Shown here in pieces: positions 1-10,943 of a DNA stretch of 23,959 nt. How positions within the stretch are numbered: position 1 is the first letter of the stretch; each line of letters opens with the position of its first letter. The position numbers and the translations under genes are program-made. This DNA comes from a virus. The notes beneath the pieces were generated by a model. It was not told the DNA's origin. It saw only the letters and a list, made by a program, of their open reading frames with translations, and did no database searches. Location of the stretch: IMG/VR virus record IMGVR_UViG_3300032296_001709, positions 1 to 23,959 of that record; one strand, 5' to 3'.

Positions 1-104
1 CCGCCGAGGCCGGAGCCCCGAACGCGTTCGGATTGGTCGGCGCGGAGGCGAATCTCCCTGCGCCCCCCTTCTCGCTGTGCTTGCAGGGTCCCGAATCTGG
101 GGAT

Positions 105-149
105 AACCCTGTGGATATGTGGACAACCCTGTGGATATGTGGACAACCC
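105..149. repeat. 20-bp tandem direct repeat, 2.25 copies
   Basis: Two identical consecutive 20-bp units occupy 105-124 and 125-144, followed by the first five bases of a third copy. Each unit contains the half-overlapping motifs TGTGGATAT and TGTGGACAA, so the duplication multiplies DnaA-box-like sites. The exact identity suggests a recent duplication or selection on spacing. Confidence 0.9.
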
Positions 150-287
150 GAGGGTCATGGGTGGCCTTGTGGAAAAAGCTGTGAATATGTTGTGGACAAC
201 CGGGATCGTCAAAAAACCGGCAGGTTGTGGAAAACCTGCCGGTTGTGGATAACCAGTCGACCGCTGAAACCCCTACTCTGTGGAAAA
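110..287 (-). promoter_or_regulatory. Cluster of ten DnaA-box-like 9-mers
   Basis: Ten 9-mers of the form TGTGGNNAN, or one base off, lie in one orientation. They are TGTGGATAT (110, 130), TGTGGACAA (118, 138, 191), TGTGGAAAA (168, 226, 279), TGTGAATAT (180) and TGTGGATAA (244). Read on the minus strand, the site at 244 is the classical DnaA box TTATCCACA. The three TGTGGACAA copies read TTGTCCACA, the form favoured in high-GC actinobacterial origins. The density, about one per 18 bp, resembles a replication origin or DnaA-binding array. No replication gene lies in the window, so the role (phage origin, DnaA titration or a packaging-related array) is inferred. Confidence 0.55.
215..244 (-). 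terminator. Perfect 12-bp hairpin, terminator-like on minus strand
   Basis: AACCGGCAGGTT at 215-226 pairs perfectly with AACCTGCCGGTT at 233-244 around a 6-base loop. On the minus strand the stem runs into six consecutive T residues (complement of 211-216), which is the form of an intrinsic terminator for leftward transcription. On the plus strand no T-run follows. The loop and right flank carry two of the DnaA-box-like motifs, so the dyad may instead belong to that array. No minus-strand gene is visible for it to terminate. Confidence 0.4.
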
Positions 288-308: not shown

Positions 309-734
309 ATGCCCCCAGGCTCAAAACCCCAACCGCCAGGCAAATCAGATCAACGCGAATCAGTGTTCAAATGGAACGTTGCTGAACATGAAGGCTGGCA
401 ACACGGCAAAGTCCCGCCCTGCCCCAAAGGCCTTTCCAGCCACGGCCAGAAGGCCTGGAAGACATGGATGAACGCGTGGTGGGCAAGTTTCTATTCAGCC
501 GAAGATTTGCCGGGCCTCGAGTTACTTGTCTTCCTTTATGACCGGGTCATGAAAGAAGAAATCGACGTCACAAAAATCATGCCGCTACTGGATCGGTACG
601 GCATCACCCCGAAGGGACGGCAAGACCTTCGATGGGCACAGTTGCCGGAGAAGAAAGCCGATCCAGTTCTCAGCTCCGATGTTCAAGACGAAATTGCCGA
701 ACGCCGCCAGCAACGCCGAACAAATCTGGCCTGA
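309..734 (+). CDS. Terminase small subunit (P27-like)
   Basis: The 141-residue product fits a phage small terminase, the DNA-recognition part of the packaging motor, which binds the packaging site and recruits the large subunit. Support comes from its position directly before the large terminase, a length typical of the family, a segment RYGITPKGRQDLRW (near residues 95-108) that resembles the C-terminal motif of actinophage small terminases, and a basic C-terminus. I chose ATG 309 because GAGG lies four bases upstream and the longer frame from 33 would translate the non-coding repeats. The stop is six bases before the next ATG, so the pair is probably co-translated. The assignment rests on context plus a short motif; no enzymatic motif is expected. 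Confidence 0.75.
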   Translation: MPPGSKPQPPGKSDQRESVFKWNVAEHEGWQHGKVPPCPKGLSSHGQKAWKTWMNAWWASFYSAEDLPGLELLVFLYDRVMKEEIDVTKIMPLLDRYGITPKGRQDLRWAQLPEKKADPVLSSDVQDEIAERRQQRRTNLA

Positions 735-739
735 TCACG

Positions 740-2365
740 ATGCCCCTTACCCGACTAGTAGCCCCAACAGAATGGCCGACCCTCGGCTGGCAGGTCATTG
801 ATTGGACTGAGCAGTATCTATGTCACGGCCCTGGAGACATCCAAGGCGAACCGTTGGTGTGGGATGAAGAGTTCTGCCAGATCATCCTTGATTGCTACCG
901 GATTTTCCCGAAAGGCCATGAGAACGAAGGCCGAAGGGTTGTGTCCTATTTCGGCATTTCCATGCCAAAGGGAAGAGCCAAATCGGAATTTGCCGGCGCT
1001 TTGGTTTGCGCCGAACTTCTCGGACCGGTCCGATTCGATGGTTGGGACGCCAATGGTGACCCGGTCGGAAAACCTGTCACCTACCCCTTCATTCGGCCGT
1101 TGGCGACGGAGGAAGGCCAGACCGGCAACACCTACGGAAACATTCAGACAATGTTGGAACACGCGCGCGAACTGTTTCCCACCGAATGGCAGTTCAACCA
1201 ACTCGATATCGGGTCAACTCGGACACTTCTAGGCAAGGGCGGCCGATTGGGCGAGGTTCGACCGTCAACAGCCGGCGCCGCTTCAAAGGATGGCGGTAAA
1301 GAATCTTTCGCAGTTGTCGACGAACCCCATTTGTATTACTTGCCGGAGTTGCGGCAAATGCACGCCATGGTTCGTCGAAACACTAGGAAGAGAAAGATTG
1401 CCCAACCTTGGATGTTGGCGACAACCACAATGTTCCAACCAGGTCAACATTCGGTAGCTGAGGATCTTTACGATGAGGCCGAAAAGTTGTTGGAGAAACC
1501 GAAACGATCTTTCGGGTTTTGTTGGCATCATCGGGAAGGGATCATGTCGGAATCTGATTGGGATGACGATGCCGCACAGTTGGCGTCTCTGCGCGAGGCG
1601 TATGGCCCGGCCGCCGATTGGATGGATTTGGCTGGCATGGTTGAACACGAAATCCGTGCCCCCGGTTCCGTAAAAGCCGAAAACGCCCGTTATTTCCACA
1701 ACCTCCGATGGAAGGGCGACCAACGCGCGATCGATCCCGACAAATGGGATGCGTTGGCAGCTCCTTCTTTGAACCCTCAAGGAGGCGAGTTCATCGCTAT
1801 CGGCTTTGATGGTTCGGACCGTGGCGAACACGCCGACGACACTGTCCTTGTCGGATGGGTTCTCACAGAGAAACCCCATTTGTTTCTAATTGATCGTTGG
1901 CGCCGTCCGGAGTTCGCCGGCAGGGACTATCGGGTGCCTCGAGAGGAAATCCGAGAGAAAGTGGCGGAATTGCGGGAAACATATGAAGTTCGACGTTTCG
2001 CGTGCGATCCGCCTGGTTGGCGTGAGGAAATCGACTCTTGGGACAAGGAGTTCGGAGAACGCTATGGAGAACCGGTGGTGGTCGAAGTATTGACAAACCG
2101 TCCGACTCGGATGGGACCGGCCATCGACCGGTTCCTCGAGGCGATCGATGAACAATCTTTCACCCATGACGGTTCAGAGGAGTTGCGGGAATACGCTTTG
2201 AACGCCTTGTTGACGAAGTCAAAAGGTAGAACCGACTTGCCAGCCGTCGTGAAGCCTACAATTGATGCAAAGATCGACGGTTTAGTAGCCGCAATTCTCT
2301 CTTATGACGAGGTAGCCAAGATGTCCCCCGAACAGCCCGTCGCCCCGTTCGCGCTTCTCGCATGA
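740..2365 (+). CDS. Terminase large subunit
   Basis: This 541-aa protein is the ATPase/nuclease motor that packages DNA into the prohead. The N-terminal ATPase domain has a deviant Walker A motif MPKGRAKSE (residues 75-83) and a Walker B motif AVVDEPH (191-197) with the catalytic Glu. The C-terminal nuclease domain has candidate metal-binding acidic residues in FDGSD (D357), ACDPPGW (D423) and AKIDG (D513). The length is normal for HK97/P27-type terminases. The start is ATG 740, just after the small subunit stop; an in-frame upstream extension from 632 would overlap the small subunit gene extensively and is rejected. The stop overlaps the next ATG (ATGA), implying translational coupling. Confidence 0.93.
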   Translation: MPLTRLVAPTEWPTLGWQVIDWTEQYLCHGPGDIQGEPLVWDEEFCQIILDCYRIFPKGHENEGRRVVSYFGISMPKGRAKSEFAGALVCAELLGPVRFDGWDANGDPVGKPVTYPFIRPLATEEGQTGNTYGNIQTMLEHARELFPTEWQFNQLDIGSTRTLLGKGGRLGEVRPSTAGAASKDGGKESFAVVDEPHLYYLPELRQMHAMVRRNTRKRKIAQPWMLATTTMFQPGQHSVAEDLYDEAEKLLEKPKRSFGFCWHHREGIMSESDWDDDAAQLASLREAYGPAADWMDLAGMVEHEIRAPGSVKAENARYFHNLRWKGDQRAIDPDKWDALAAPSLNPQGGEFIAIGFDGSDRGEHADDTVLVGWVLTEKPHLFLIDRWRRPEFAGRDYRVPREEIREKVAELRETYEVRRFACDPPGWREEIDSWDKEFGERYGEPVVVEVLTNRPTRMGPAIDRFLEAIDEQSFTHDGSEELREYALNALLTKSKGRTDLPAVVKPTIDAKIDGLVAAILSYDEVAKMSPEQPVAPFALLA

Positions 2366-6894: not shown

Positions 6895-8322
6895 ATGGCA
6901 TCCACCCCGAAGGTCGCCGTTGGCATTATCTACGGCAGTTTCGAACCAGACTTCGTTTTTTCCCTCTTGGCACTCAAATCGTGGGACGACAAAAACAACG
7001 GGGTTCTAGATCATGCCGGTTGGCTTATCGCGCAGGCAGGAACAAACCTGCCCCAACAAAGAAACACAGTCGTCAAAGCGTTTTTAGAAACAGACGCAGA
7101 TTGGCTGTTGTTCATCGACACTGACCAACGATTCGCGTTCAACATTGTCGACCAGCTCCTCGAATCAGCCGACCCCATCGAACGGCCCATCCTGTCGGCC
7201 TTGATCATGGCCGAAAAGTTCAACCCTCATCATCGGATTGTCCCAGCGTGCATCGGTTTCGAAACCCTCGACCCGCCAACCCCACGCGAATATCAAACAA
7301 TCCCCGCCGAACAGCACTGGCAGGTCGGAGCAGTCGGCTCCGGATGTGTCCTAATCCATCGAACCGTTTTCGAAAAGATTTGGGCAGCGAACCCGAAAGA
7401 CGCTCAACCATGGTTCAAATATGTTCAATGGGATTGGGTTGACCCCGACACCGGAAAAACTGTTTATGACATCATGGGCGAAGATTATGTGTTCAGTCTG
7501 CGCGCGCAGGCGTGCGGGTTTCGATGTTATGTCGACACCACAATCGAAGCCGGGCACATAAAGAAACGAACGTTGACGACACGGGACTTTTGGCCTCAAA
7601 TCCCGCCGGAACTCATCCCAATCAAAACCTTTGTGATCATCCCAGTCAAAGACAATTTGAAGATGACGAAGGCTTTGCTACGCCAACTTCATGACCAGGG
7701 CGAACACGACGGCATCCTTGTCCTGGATAACGGTTCAAATCCTGAAACGCGCAAATGGTTAGGCGCTCAAACTTTCGCCAAAGTTTTAGACACCGCCGGA
7801 ATGGGTATCCACGAAATGTGGAATGCCGGCGCACATTGGGCAATGAATCGGCATCCGAAAGCCAACATTGCTTTTCTCAACAATGACATTGTGATTGGTG
7901 AAAAGTTTATTGTCACAATGGCTGAAGCTTTACGATCCGATGATCGTCTTGTGGCCGTCTGCCCCAACTATGACGGACGAGAAGCCCCCGAAAAGGTTGT
8001 TCAGTTGCACGGCATTTGTGCCGACCGCTATGACGGAACCGGCGGCCTCGCCGGATTCGCGTTCATGGTCAAATCCGAATGGTTCCAGGAAGGCTGGCAT
8101 TTTCCGGAGGATTGCAAATGGTGGTTTGGAGACAATGACCTTGTCTTGTCGGTTGACATGGCTGGCGGCTGGTATGGCATGGCAACTGAAACGACTGTGG
8201 AACATATCGACGGAGGTTCAAAAACCGGGGACTGGGAAGATCCCGCCATGCAACAGCAACTTGCGAAAGACAAAGCCGCTTTTATGCGTCGATGGGCGCG
8301 TCATGGGGTTCAGGTTCAATGA
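6895..8322 (+). CDS. Tandem-domain glycosyltransferase
   Basis: The 475-aa protein appears to contain two GT-A type glycosyltransferase domains that transfer sugars from nucleotide-sugar donors. Domain 1 (about 1-235) has FIDTDQRF, a DxD-type metal/sugar-nucleotide motif, preceded by LPQQRNTVVKAFLETDADW, and a later GEDYVFSLRAQACGF typical of the catalytic Glu-Asp region. Domain 2 (about 242-475) begins KTFVIIPVKDN and has LVLDNGSNPETR, AFLNNDIVIG (an NND in the DxD position) and WWFGDNDLVLS. AAGGAG at 6884-6889 supports ATG 6895. It opens a five-gene coupled cassette right after the capsid gene. The acceptor is unknown; capsid or tail protein, or a host glycan, are inferences. Confidence 0.8.
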   Translation: MASTPKVAVGIIYGSFEPDFVFSLLALKSWDDKNNGVLDHAGWLIAQAGTNLPQQRNTVVKAFLETDADWLLFIDTDQRFAFNIVDQLLESADPIERPILSALIMAEKFNPHHRIVPACIGFETLDPPTPREYQTIPAEQHWQVGAVGSGCVLIHRTVFEKIWAANPKDAQPWFKYVQWDWVDPDTGKTVYDIMGEDYVFSLRAQACGFRCYVDTTIEAGHIKKRTLTTRDFWPQIPPELIPIKTFVIIPVKDNLKMTKALLRQLHDQGEHDGILVLDNGSNPETRKWLGAQTFAKVLDTAGMGIHEMWNAGAHWAMNRHPKANIAFLNNDIVIGEKFIVTMAEALRSDDRLVAVCPNYDGREAPEKVVQLHGICADRYDGTGGLAGFAFMVKSEWFQEGWHFPEDCKWWFGDNDLVLSVDMAGGWYGMATETTVEHIDGGSKTGDWEDPAMQQQLAKDKAAFMRRWARHGVQVQ

Positions 8323-8951
8323 AACCCAAACTTGCTTTGATGGTTGTAACCGATGGTCGTTGGGACTATCTCCAACGAACTCTCGAGTCCGCCGCTCAAT
8401 GTTTAGATTGGCCTTGGCATCAAAAACTTTTGATTGACGATTCAGGGGAAAAACAAGGGTTCAGCCCTGACGGGTTTGATTTTGTGAAAAACATGCCTCG
8501 ACGCGGTTTGGCCGGGGCGATTCAATCCGGTTGGGACGCTATTGACTCGGAAGTGGATTACGTCTTCCACCTCGAGGACGATTTCATTTTCCCTGATGTC
8601 GTAGACCTTGAACTCATGATTGAATTGTTGGAATACGAACCGGAACTCGCCCAAATCGCCTTGTTGCGTCAGCCCTGGTCTCCCCAGGAACAACAAGCCG
8701 GCGGAATCTATGGGGTAGACCCCGTCCGGTTCAAAAATAAATATGGTTTTGTCGAACAACGGCACCTTTTCACATTCAACCCGTGTCTTTATCCGGCTTC
8801 TATCACACGCGAATATGAGGCAGGTTTAGAAGCCGAACTCACTTCGGAATTGTTGAAAGATGGTTGGAGGTTCGGGTATTTGGGCGAACTTGGCGACGAA
8901 CCAAAAACTTTTCACATCGGACTTCGACGCTCAAAGAATTATCAACTATGA
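8319..8951 (+). CDS. Small glycosyltransferase-like protein
   Basis: The 210-aa product starts KPKLALMVVTDGRWDYLQRT, which matches the first strand and helix of family-2-like glycosyltransferases. It has LLIDDSGEKQ and VFHLEDDFIFP, where EDD sits in the DxD position. The part after residue 90 is shorter than a full GT-A enzyme, but a GxPKTFHIG-like ending is retained (EPKTFHIGLRRS). ATG 8319 overlaps the previous stop (ATGA), and its own stop overlaps the next ATG. Similar small proteins occur beside glycosyltransferases in actinophages. The sugar and acceptor cannot be told from sequence. Codon use (TTG, TTT, AAA) is like the preceding gene and unlike capsid. Confidence 0.7.
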   Translation: MKPKLALMVVTDGRWDYLQRTLESAAQCLDWPWHQKLLIDDSGEKQGFSPDGFDFVKNMPRRGLAGAIQSGWDAIDSEVDYVFHLEDDFIFPDVVDLELMIELLEYEPELAQIALLRQPWSPQEQQAGGIYGVDPVRFKNKYGFVEQRHLFTFNPCLYPASITREYEAGLEAELTSELLKDGWRFGYLGELGDEPKTFHIGLRRSKNYQL

Positions 8952-9526
8952 GTCCGGTAGTTGTTCTTTGTGCTGGTGGGCATGGGCAAGATATCGCCGC
9001 CATTTTGAAAGATGCCGGCCAGCCGTTCGCCGGATACTTAGACGACGAAGTCGACGGGCCCGACATTCTCGGCCCCTGCATCGATCTTCATTTATATGAC
9101 CGCTACCTAATCGGGCACAACAACTCTCGAATTCGAGAAGCATTAGACCGGGCTGAAGGAGCAGCGACAGCCATACACCCTTCAGCGGCCGTTCATTCGA
9201 CGCTACAGGCCCTTCCTGGTGTCGTAGTAGGGCAACACGCCACCATCGGCCCCAAAACCCGTCTAGGGCGCCACACACACATCAACGGCAACGTCTTCAT
9301 CACACGCGCGCAAATCGGCGATTTCGTCACCATCGGACCAGGGGCCACGATCTGTGGACACGTCACCATCGGGGCCGGCGCCCAAATCGGCGCAGGAGCT
9401 GTGATTTCCAACCTGGCCGAAATAGGGCCACGGGCCACAATTGGCGCCGGCACCGTTGTTTTACCTCGACAGAACATTCCACCAAACTCCACATGGGTCG
9501 GAGTCCCGGCAAGGCGGATCAAATGA
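8948..9526 (+). CDS. NeuD-like sugar O-acetyltransferase
   Basis: The 192-aa protein has the two-part layout of the NeuD/PglD family. The N-terminal part (1-60) has SPVVVLCAGGHGQDIAAIL, a Rossmann-like GGHG motif. From about residue 80 a left-handed beta-helix of hexapeptide repeats follows (VVVGQHATIGPKTRLG, then VTIGPGATICGHVTIG), ending in the usual WVGVPARRIK. Family members acetylate amino-sugars or sialic acids using acetyl-CoA. In this phage it sits between glycosyltransferase genes with ATGA overlaps at both ends, so it probably acetylates the sugar they attach, or its precursor. There is one candidate catalytic His near residue 78 (AIHPSAAVH). The substrate is unknown. Confidence 0.85.
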   Translation: MSPVVVLCAGGHGQDIAAILKDAGQPFAGYLDDEVDGPDILGPCIDLHLYDRYLIGHNNSRIREALDRAEGAATAIHPSAAVHSTLQALPGVVVGQHATIGPKTRLGRHTHINGNVFITRAQIGDFVTIGPGATICGHVTIGAGAQIGAGAVISNLAEIGPRATIGAGTVVLPRQNIPPNSTWVGVPARRIK

Positions 9527-10272
9527 AAACCGTGGCAATCACAATGGTTCGAGACGAAGAAGACGTCATCGACTGGACAATCGATCATCTTCTCAACCAG
9601 GGAATCGACCACATCATCGTCGCCGACAACCTCTCTGTAGACGAAACGCCCTGGAAACTCGCAGCCCTCGCCAACACCGGACAAATCACAATCATCCAAG
9701 ACGAAGAACCCGGCTACTACCAGGACGAAAAAATGACCCGGTTAGCCCACATGGCGGCCGACCAGTTCGAAGCCGAATGGGTTCTCCCCTTCGACGCCGA
9801 CGAATACTGGTATTGGACCGGCGGCACCCTCGCCGAATTCTTCAGCAAAACCACCGCCGACATCATCACCGCTACCGGCTGGGACCACATCGCCACCGAC
9901 GACGACGACCCCACCGAACTCAACCCGTTCCGAAGGATCATCCGCCGCCGCCAAAAACCCCAAAAAATGGGCAAAGTAGCGTTCCGATATCACCCCGGCA
10001 TTCACATCGATTTTGGAAACCATTTCCTTTTCAACCATCCCGGCCGACAAGCTCAGGCCCTCAATTATCGCCACTACCAATATCGATCCTTCGAACAACT
10101 CATCAGCAAAGCCCGCAACGGAGCCGCCGCCTACAACGCCACCACCCTCCACCCCACCTACGGGGCGCACTGGCGGCAACTCGGAAACCTCAACGACGCT
10201 GAACTATGGACCACCTGGCGGAAACTATGCGAAGAAACCGGCCTCATCAACGATCCGGCCCCCATGCCATGA
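9523..10272 (+). CDS. Glycosyltransferase, family-2-like (PF13704 type)
   Basis: The 249-aa protein begins MKTVAITMVRDEEDVIDWTI and continues GIDHIIVADNLSVDETP, the pattern of the Glyco_tranf_2_4 group (an N/RDEE motif, then D-N-x-S-x-D-x-T). WVLPFDADEYWYW near residues 86-98 supplies the DxD motif. Length is typical. ATGA overlaps link it to the acetyltransferase upstream and the next glycosyltransferase downstream. The codon use here is markedly C-ending (GCC, ACC, ATC) compared with the two genes before, suggesting a different history for this part of the cassette. The acceptor is unknown. Confidence 0.85.
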   Translation: MKTVAITMVRDEEDVIDWTIDHLLNQGIDHIIVADNLSVDETPWKLAALANTGQITIIQDEEPGYYQDEKMTRLAHMAADQFEAEWVLPFDADEYWYWTGGTLAEFFSKTTADIITATGWDHIATDDDDPTELNPFRRIIRRRQKPQKMGKVAFRYHPGIHIDFGNHFLFNHPGRQAQALNYRHYQYRSFEQLISKARNGAAAYNATTLHPTYGAHWRQLGNLNDAELWTTWRKLCEETGLINDPAPMP

Positions 10273-10943
10273 CCGTCGCAGTCATCATCCCCACCTTCAA
10301 CCGGCTTGAACTGACACAAAACTGTCTCAACTCCATCGCCAGACACGACCCGATCTACGAACTCATCATCGTCGACAACGGATCCACAGACGGAACCGAT
10401 CAACTCGCCACCATCGCCCTTGAAACTAATAAAGGTTTCGCCTATGCCTGCAACGCCGGGGCCGACCTCGCAACATCAGACCGCCTTATCTTCCTCAACA
10501 ATGACACCATCGTTCACCCCAACTGGACATCATTTACCGAACTTCTAGACGAACCTGAAATCGGAGTAGTGGGGCCGAAACTCATCTACCCCGACTGCCA
10601 AATCCAATCCGCCGGAATCGCCGTTGACTTCACACGGCCCCCAGGATTAGAAGCCTGGAACCTAAACACAGATTGGGCAACCACCCCCGCCGACGTTGAC
10701 GCCATCACCGGGGCATGTCTCGGCATCCGAAAAGAACTATTCCACCAACTCGGAGGCTTCGATATCGGGTACTGGAACGGCTACGAAGACGTCGACCTCT
10801 GCCTCGCATCCATACAAAAAGGATTCCGCAACGTCTACGATCCAAGGGCAACTGTGACCCATCTAGAGTCCCAATCCGGTCCGGCACGTTGGGCCGCCGT
10901 CACTGAGAACGTGACCCGACTTCGAAACAAATGGAGCCAATAA
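10269..10943 (+). CDS. Glycosyltransferase family 2
   Basis: The 224-aa protein is a textbook GT2 domain. TVAVIIPTFNRLELTQNCL opens the Rossmann-like fold, LIIVDNGSTDGT binds nucleotide, GFAYACNAG and FLNNDTIVHP give the metal-binding NND, and GYWNGYEDVDLCLA (about 167-180) supplies the catalytic acidic residues of rhamnosyl-type GT2 enzymes. The closest general types are rhamnosyl or N-acetylglucosaminyl transferases, but the donor cannot be told from sequence. ATG 10269 overlaps the previous stop. Its stop overlaps the head-tail connector start (TAATG), so the cassette is spliced directly into the structural operon without a gap. Confidence 0.9.
   Translation: MTVAVIIPTFNRLELTQNCLNSIARHDPIYELIIVDNGSTDGTDQLATIALETNKGFAYACNAGADLATSDRLIFLNNDTIVHPNWTSFTELLDEPEIGVVGPKLIYPDCQIQSAGIAVDFTRPPGLEAWNLNTDWATTPADVDAITGACLGIRKELFHQLGGFDIGYWNGYEDVDLCLASIQKGFRNVYDPRATVTHLESQSGPARWAAVTENVTRLRNKWSQ

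Follow-up and report, generated by a model that had tools for sequence, protein, structure and literature searches.

The window, a virus record analysed over its full 23,959 nt, is the left end of a 35-kb phage of actinobacterial type, and its terminase genes are preceded by a dense, single-orientation array of sites that read as DnaA boxes and lie beside an inferred cos site. This array would be the left half of a larger cluster, about 17 boxes in all, that becomes whole only once the cohesive ends of the linear genome have been joined. The function we favour, tentatively, is that of an accessory to a phage origin with an iteron-type core, serving to recruit host DnaA: DnaA on the phased boxes would mark the joined-end region and aid the phage replication proteins in starting there, and the core origin would consist of iteron-like GGGACGCG repeats that lie in the neighbouring primase-polymerase/helicase gene, at its 3' end. 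Such an array would tie host DnaA to the site of the phage's switch between genome replication and packaging.

A box array ahead of the terminase genes

A scan for TTRTCCACA with at most one mismatch found 13 sites in 23,959 nt, where dinucleotide shuffling of the entire window predicts 8.3 (s.d. 2.9). Positions 98–287 contain ten of the 13, every one on the minus strand (Table 1), and the TTNTCCACA boxes are thus clustered beyond chance. At the window's own rate, ten boxes in 190 nt correspond to a Poisson probability of ~3e-17, a value that takes no account of a 20-nt tandem repeat making up part of the array. A previous, sequence-only reading had placed ten boxes in 110–287; the clustering holds, but the range does not, with nine boxes in that interval and the tenth at 98–106. 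The same reading had distinguished one TTATCCACA and three TTGTCCACA among these same-orientation 9-mers and had put the array upstream of the terminase genes, and both observations were reproduced: these four are the exact boxes, and the others are TTTTCCACA (three), ATATCCACA (two) and TTATCCCCA (one). An open reading frame that runs through the array (117–734) was rejected as a gene, since box number and spacer lengths vary in the alignment of relatives and the box cores are nearly invariant. A stretch like the inverted repeat at 215–244, with a DnaA-like box across its loop, is also present in two relatives (G002 and L011).

Table 1. Coordinates of features in the window, and of the repeats near the right genome end
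Feature	Position	Strand	Remarks
Leading sequence	1–55		Unlike the phage's right genome end
Inferred cosN, 10-nt CCCTGCGCCC	56–65		Contigs end just before or start just after; junction-spanning contigs include the 10-mer
Left genome end element CCCTTCTCGCTGTGC...GCAGGGTC	66–89	+	Resembles first bases of isolated actinophage records
DnaA-like box TTATCCCCA	98–106	-	1 mismatch; homologous position +32 from left end
DnaA-like box ATATCCACA	110–118	-	1 mismatch
DnaA box TTGTCCACA	118–126	-	Exact
DnaA-like box ATATCCACA	130–138	-	1 mismatch
DnaA box TTGTCCACA	138–146	-	Exact
DnaA-like box TTTTCCACA	168–176	-	Motif scan
DnaA box TTGTCCACA	191–199	-	Exact
Perfect 12-nt inverted repeat, inside array	215–244		Arms 215–226 and 233–244
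DnaA-like box TTTTCCACA	226–234	-	Overlaps loop of 215–244 inverted repeat
DnaA box TTATCCACA	244–252	-	Exact
DnaA-like box TTTTCCACA	279–287	-	terS ATG 21 nt downstream
Terminase small subunit (terS), type A	309–734	+	Terminase_7 match below curated cut-off; phrog_226
Terminase large subunit (terL)	740–2365	+	phrog_9; conserved start 740, ORF opening at 632
GGGACGCG repeats	L300 5476–5601 = G001 34155–34280		Inside Prim-Pol gene 3' end

This position raises the question of a regulatory region, in which DnaA bound upstream of terS would control the late (packaging and structural) operon. The last box is close to the terS start, the left half of the array lies entirely upstream of the structural genes, and arrays of other phages tend to be 5' of TerL; against this, a scan of the + strand of positions 1–1000 for promoters of the sigma-70-like type only found none, the array continues past cos with its second half, and terS and terL stay in place in array-less relatives. 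Of the readings weighed here, we consider this the least probable. Searches for promoters and terminators found nothing convincing, and no tRNAs were found. Further into the window (6895–10943), several glycosyltransferase-like genes are flanked by a capsid gene on one side and a head-tail connector gene on the other.

Letters, flanks and spacing of the boxes

Whether the sites are DnaA boxes was judged by comparison with bacterial loci: among the 117 listed, 47 have an extended-motif array beside dnaA. Of the 117, 34 were used in one step; of the 47 dnaA loci, 42 were used for letters and 37 for spacing. Because the bacterial motif scan prescribed part of the motif, flanks were counted instead in 30 actinobacterial dnaA loci that had been chosen by DnaA alone and were returned from 60 genomes; these also served for spacing. 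On the phage side, 13 family loci were used for box positions, 12 for letters and 12 for flanks.

C is absent from box position 3 in all 92 exact phage units and occurs there in 5 of 388 units in the 42 dnaA-bearing loci. The flanking position −1 is C in 69/92 phage units and 51/81 units of actinobacterial dnaA loci. Same-strand spacings of 11–12 nt account for 38% and 36% in the two phage halves, 49% in the 30 actinobacterial loci and 43% across 34 other viral arrays. In an alignment of relatives' arrays, box number changes, yet the columns without variation coincide mostly with box cores. The array thus has the letter pattern, flanks and spacing of arrays beside dnaA, and the identification of its units as DnaA boxes, first proposed from the window sequence, is well supported by these comparisons. 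One difference concerns TTTTCCACA, which makes up 43/92 phage units versus 65/388 in dnaA loci and 10/115 in the 12 actinobacterial ones among them; its excess may be taken as a small point against simple mimicry. Overall, the array appears to be a true DnaA-box cluster that would be bound by host DnaA. Since viral arrays beside unrelated terminases use the same motif, a single small terminase protein (TerS) is an unlikely reader of it.

Genome ends and an inferred cos site

The right genome end is included in G001, a contig of this phage that is longer (34,865 nt) and has one mismatch across the shared 23,959 nt. CCCTTCTCG forms the very start of seven family contigs (in one of the seven, and in its twin, it reads CCCTTTTCG), one begins a single base before a start of this type, and the right ends of five contigs (G001, G002, L304, L307 and L308) terminate at ...CAAC. 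Contigs that span the joint contain ten extra bases, CCCTGCGCCC, between these two observed ends. Because contigs stop before or start after CCCTGCGCCC and spanning contigs contain it, we infer a cos site with a 10-nt 3' overhang. Several isolated actinophage records open with an element similar to that of the left end, for example TGTGCGTACGGGTCTGG. In the window, the 10-mer is preceded by GAATCT versus ...CTCAAC at the right end of G001, and relatives spanning the joint read CAAC, CCCTGCGCCC and CCCTTCTCGC in succession; positions 1–55 may therefore be a chimeric joint at cos or an assembly artefact. The same 55 nt are also present in the 34.9-kb contig.

The right end of G001 carries seven further boxes (≤1 mismatch), the outer five in the opposite orientation; joining the ends gives a total of about 17 boxes around cos. 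The innermost boxes are fixed in place: the first box, 32 nt past the genome end in the window, is at +32 in 11/11 loci with an observed left end (two more agree if missing bases are added), and the innermost right-side box is at −33 in 9/9 array-bearing right ends. An array adjoining a packaging site, which had been suggested from the window alone, is supported, with boxes on both sides of the inferred cos.

A primase-polymerase gene and iteron-like repeats near the right end

Leftward from cos lie an HNH-like gene, so named from the look of its sequence and from actinophage gene order (searches gave no family match), and then a Prim-Pol/AAA_25 (primase-polymerase/helicase) gene that ends 523 nt from the right end of G001 and ~0.4 kb from the nearest boxes. 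The remark that no replication gene was in view is thus correct for the window, but does not extend to the whole phage.

Within the 3' end of the Prim-Pol gene, direct GGGACGCG repeats are present in 4–8 copies in 7/7 array-bearing right arms, within about half a kilobase of the box array; direct repeats in or beside a replication gene are what an iteron-type origin would have. In L300 (Table 1), the four RDA repeats at this place are all coded CGG GAC GCG, whereas an RDA elsewhere in the protein is not. The array-less L308 has CCGCCGC at five of the same positions. Joint change of repeat copies, here known from this one array-less genome, is as expected for binding sites of an initiator and favours an iteron-type core origin; the GGGACGCG repeats are candidate iterons, with possibly changed specificity in L308.

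Presence and absence in relatives

Each of the 17 family loci in which this region is covered, counting the phage of the window, has at least seven boxes, and the TerL proteins of these loci are about 87–100% identical to the window's. Outside this group, L393 and L394 (TerL 82%, TerS 56–59%) have 64–65 nt from contig start to terS and no box there, and the first 15 nt of L394 are identical to the array-bearing left end. A search of the 800 nt upstream of TerL for three exact boxes was positive in 0/59 examined relatives outside the group, drawn from the best 80 loci of 476 relatives, some of whose contigs are incomplete there. The cosN 10-mer is also present in L337 and L327 (portal 89%), which have another TerS/TerL type and lack boxes. 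In these array-less siblings, an ORF that looks ParB-like by its sequence (L337 640–1881) lies between cos and the P27-type small terminase gene. Finally, L308/G094 has the replication module of the array-bearing phages in the same order (Prim-Pol, 71%; nuclease; WhiB; HNH-like gene) and the same right terminus, with no box cluster in the 29.9 kb examined, a contig from which the terS/terL end is missing.

The motif scan of related genomes that had been proposed as a check therefore divides: the boxes are kept in the closest group (17/17) and absent at ~82% TerL identity and in the replication-module sibling. Given this distribution, the array is not an obligatory element of cos, and it is not an obligatory origin either. 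It is a lineage-specific insertion around cos, dispensable, as judged from these genomes, both for the window's terminase type and for its replication module.

These relatives also bear on a packaging element, in which the boxes would belong to cos and serve as binding sites either for TerS or for host DnaA acting as an accessory factor of terminase; lambda cos, too, makes use of a host protein. The fixed boxes at +32 and −33 are what such an element would have, and the siblings with another TerS/TerL type lack boxes on both sides. It is difficult to reconcile with L393 and L394, which have no box between terminus and terS, with the same 10-nt cosN being used alongside another terminase in array-less L327 and L337, with the left ends of isolated actinophages, 9/10 of which are without an exact box (the tenth has one), and with L042, in which box orientation is mostly flipped. 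We regard a packaging element as improbable.

The host is probably actinobacterial, as suggested by WhiB and by an Rpf-like transglycosylase domain in G001, the latter of which we take to be an actinobacterial link. A TerL query of genome contigs for a host by provirus gave 11 pattern matches and 0 relatives.

Possible origin function and DnaA titration

The accessory origin that we favour draws on gene order, the Prim-Pol/AAA_25 gene preceding the HNH-like gene and cos, and on some arrays of unrelated phages that lie near replication genes (L133, L068 and L142; the order in L133 is primase/helicase, array, small gene, TerL). Several observations count against it. No AT-rich unwinding element was found near the array, whose lowest nearby 50-nt GC is within the genome norm (in seven records, 13–92% of same-record segments are as low or lower), and no DnaA-trio (at least four [TA]A[GA] triplets) is near it, the sole hit in three records being far off, at G001 17963. 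GC skew is monotone and uninformative on origin position. The array is missing from L308/G094 with the same replication module and from L393/L394 with the same or a similar left end, and Prim-Pol (PF09250) was found in only 2 of 50 other array records, and a general association of arrays with this gene was rejected on this count. An origin and a sink had both been raised in the previous, sequence-only reading, and both are compatible with these findings.

The main rival to the accessory origin is a DnaA sink, in which the boxes would titrate host DnaA as phage copies rise and halt new rounds of host chromosome replication, with place and orientation of minor importance. About 17 boxes per genome, the absence of an unwinding element, the apparent dispensability of the array for terminase type and replication module, the differences in box number between relatives and the frequency of TTTTCCACA would all suit titration. 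The fixed distances of the inner boxes to cos, the straddling of cos and the tendency of other phages' arrays to sit 5' of TerL are left unexplained by it, and a sink seems to us rather unlikely.

A more specific proposal is that the two half-arrays form an orisome-like cluster only when cos is sealed, such that DnaA would read circularization and license replication, and terminase cutting would split the platform again. To this we give little credence. If it were true, one site would serve two opposed ends, DnaA binding and packaging, and phages of other clades whose arrays lie 5' of the terminase genes would have reached a similar arrangement. The role of the array can be tested with a natural matched pair that has the same left end with and without it.

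Arrays in other viruses

A scan for viral arrays gave at least 120 loci, of which 52 have at least five exact boxes in 300 nt; similarity reduction left 34, with L134 dropped as a member of the window phage's own family. A reversed-motif control returned 8 loci in the whole collection, with one letter choice versus three in the array scan, so that it is not a strict match. Among the arrays listed, TerL could be placed in 22/34, and 14/22 lie at most 2.5 kb 5' of TerL, where 3.5 would be expected, with a limit chosen after the distances were seen and with three members qualified (L116 counts only with contig ends joined, the placement of L083 falls short of the curated cut-off, and L154 is fragmentary). 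Because a single TerL clade (53–90% identity) accounts for nine of the 14, the fair count is by clade: 6/14 TerL clades among the arrays listed have an array within this distance, with 1.7 expected (P ~0.002) under uniform placement, and since arrays prefer intergenic DNA, this enrichment may be overstated. In ORF scans, terminase families came top among 106 near ORFs, and none was in the top 25 shown for far ORFs (106 of 153). A conserved array orientation was considered and dropped, given flips within the nine-array clade and in L042.

Among the arrays listed, several unrelated clades of phages thus have similar arrays on the 5' side of their terminase genes. With WhiB in 0/50 of the other viral array records, most of these viruses are probably not actinophages. 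An AT-richer phage (G041) has the same order, its array close to one contig end and TerL close to the other. If arrays 5' of terminase genes are common, as the arrays listed suggest, dependence on DnaA may be an overlooked host factor of uncultured phages.

Arrays of TGTGGATAA with 11–12-nt phasing were also seen in unrelated virus contigs (L140 9391–9455, L152 2588–2842 and L060 1058–1338), and a 3.8-kb plasmid record of Candidatus Pantoea edessiphila has 16 same-strand boxes (L206 3406–3618).

Comparison with known systems

Lambda cosB is a set of repeats to which TerS binds, lying between cosN and the gene for the small terminase subunit. The phage array likewise has repeats in the interval from the genome end to terS and holds its inner units at fixed positions, but its repeats have the letters of DnaA boxes, lie on both sides of cosN and are not kept across the same terminase and cos type (L393 and L394, TerL 82%). 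Titration sites of the datA type are DnaA-box clusters without an unwinding element; the array also lacks one, and differs in being on a phage and tied to cos, its titration being putative. P1 oriR is an iteron-type origin with DnaA boxes nearby, and with this origin and lambda ori (in gene O) the phage shares repeats inside or beside a replication gene and DnaA boxes in the vicinity. It differs from both in having many more boxes, set around cos, a Prim-Pol/AAA_25 fusion and iterons that are putative.

DnaA boxes near lambda ori are described in PMC3985674. For Pseudomonas phage vB_PseuGesM_254, PMC11512268 reports an origin predicted by Ori-Finder with DnaA boxes, a proposal similar to ours for DnaA boxes in a phage origin, and differs in highlighting an AT-containing region and GATC sites. 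The main text of a study of mycobacterial prophage origins (PMC7157519) is without the word DnaA. Among the open-licence papers listed that treat DnaA boxes together with phages, terminases, cos sites, origins or metagenomes, no title or abstract opening describes the present arrangement.

Relative to bacterial oriC, the left half of the phage array has a single orientation, more TTTTCCACA and no dnaA gene, and its lowest nearby 50-nt GC is the phage norm, compared with 16–24% GC in three box-rich dnaA loci. What the array shares with oriC, especially that of actinobacteria, is the same 9-mer, the avoidance of C at position 3 and preference for C at −1, and many 11–12-nt spacings, with up to 20 boxes in ~500 nt.
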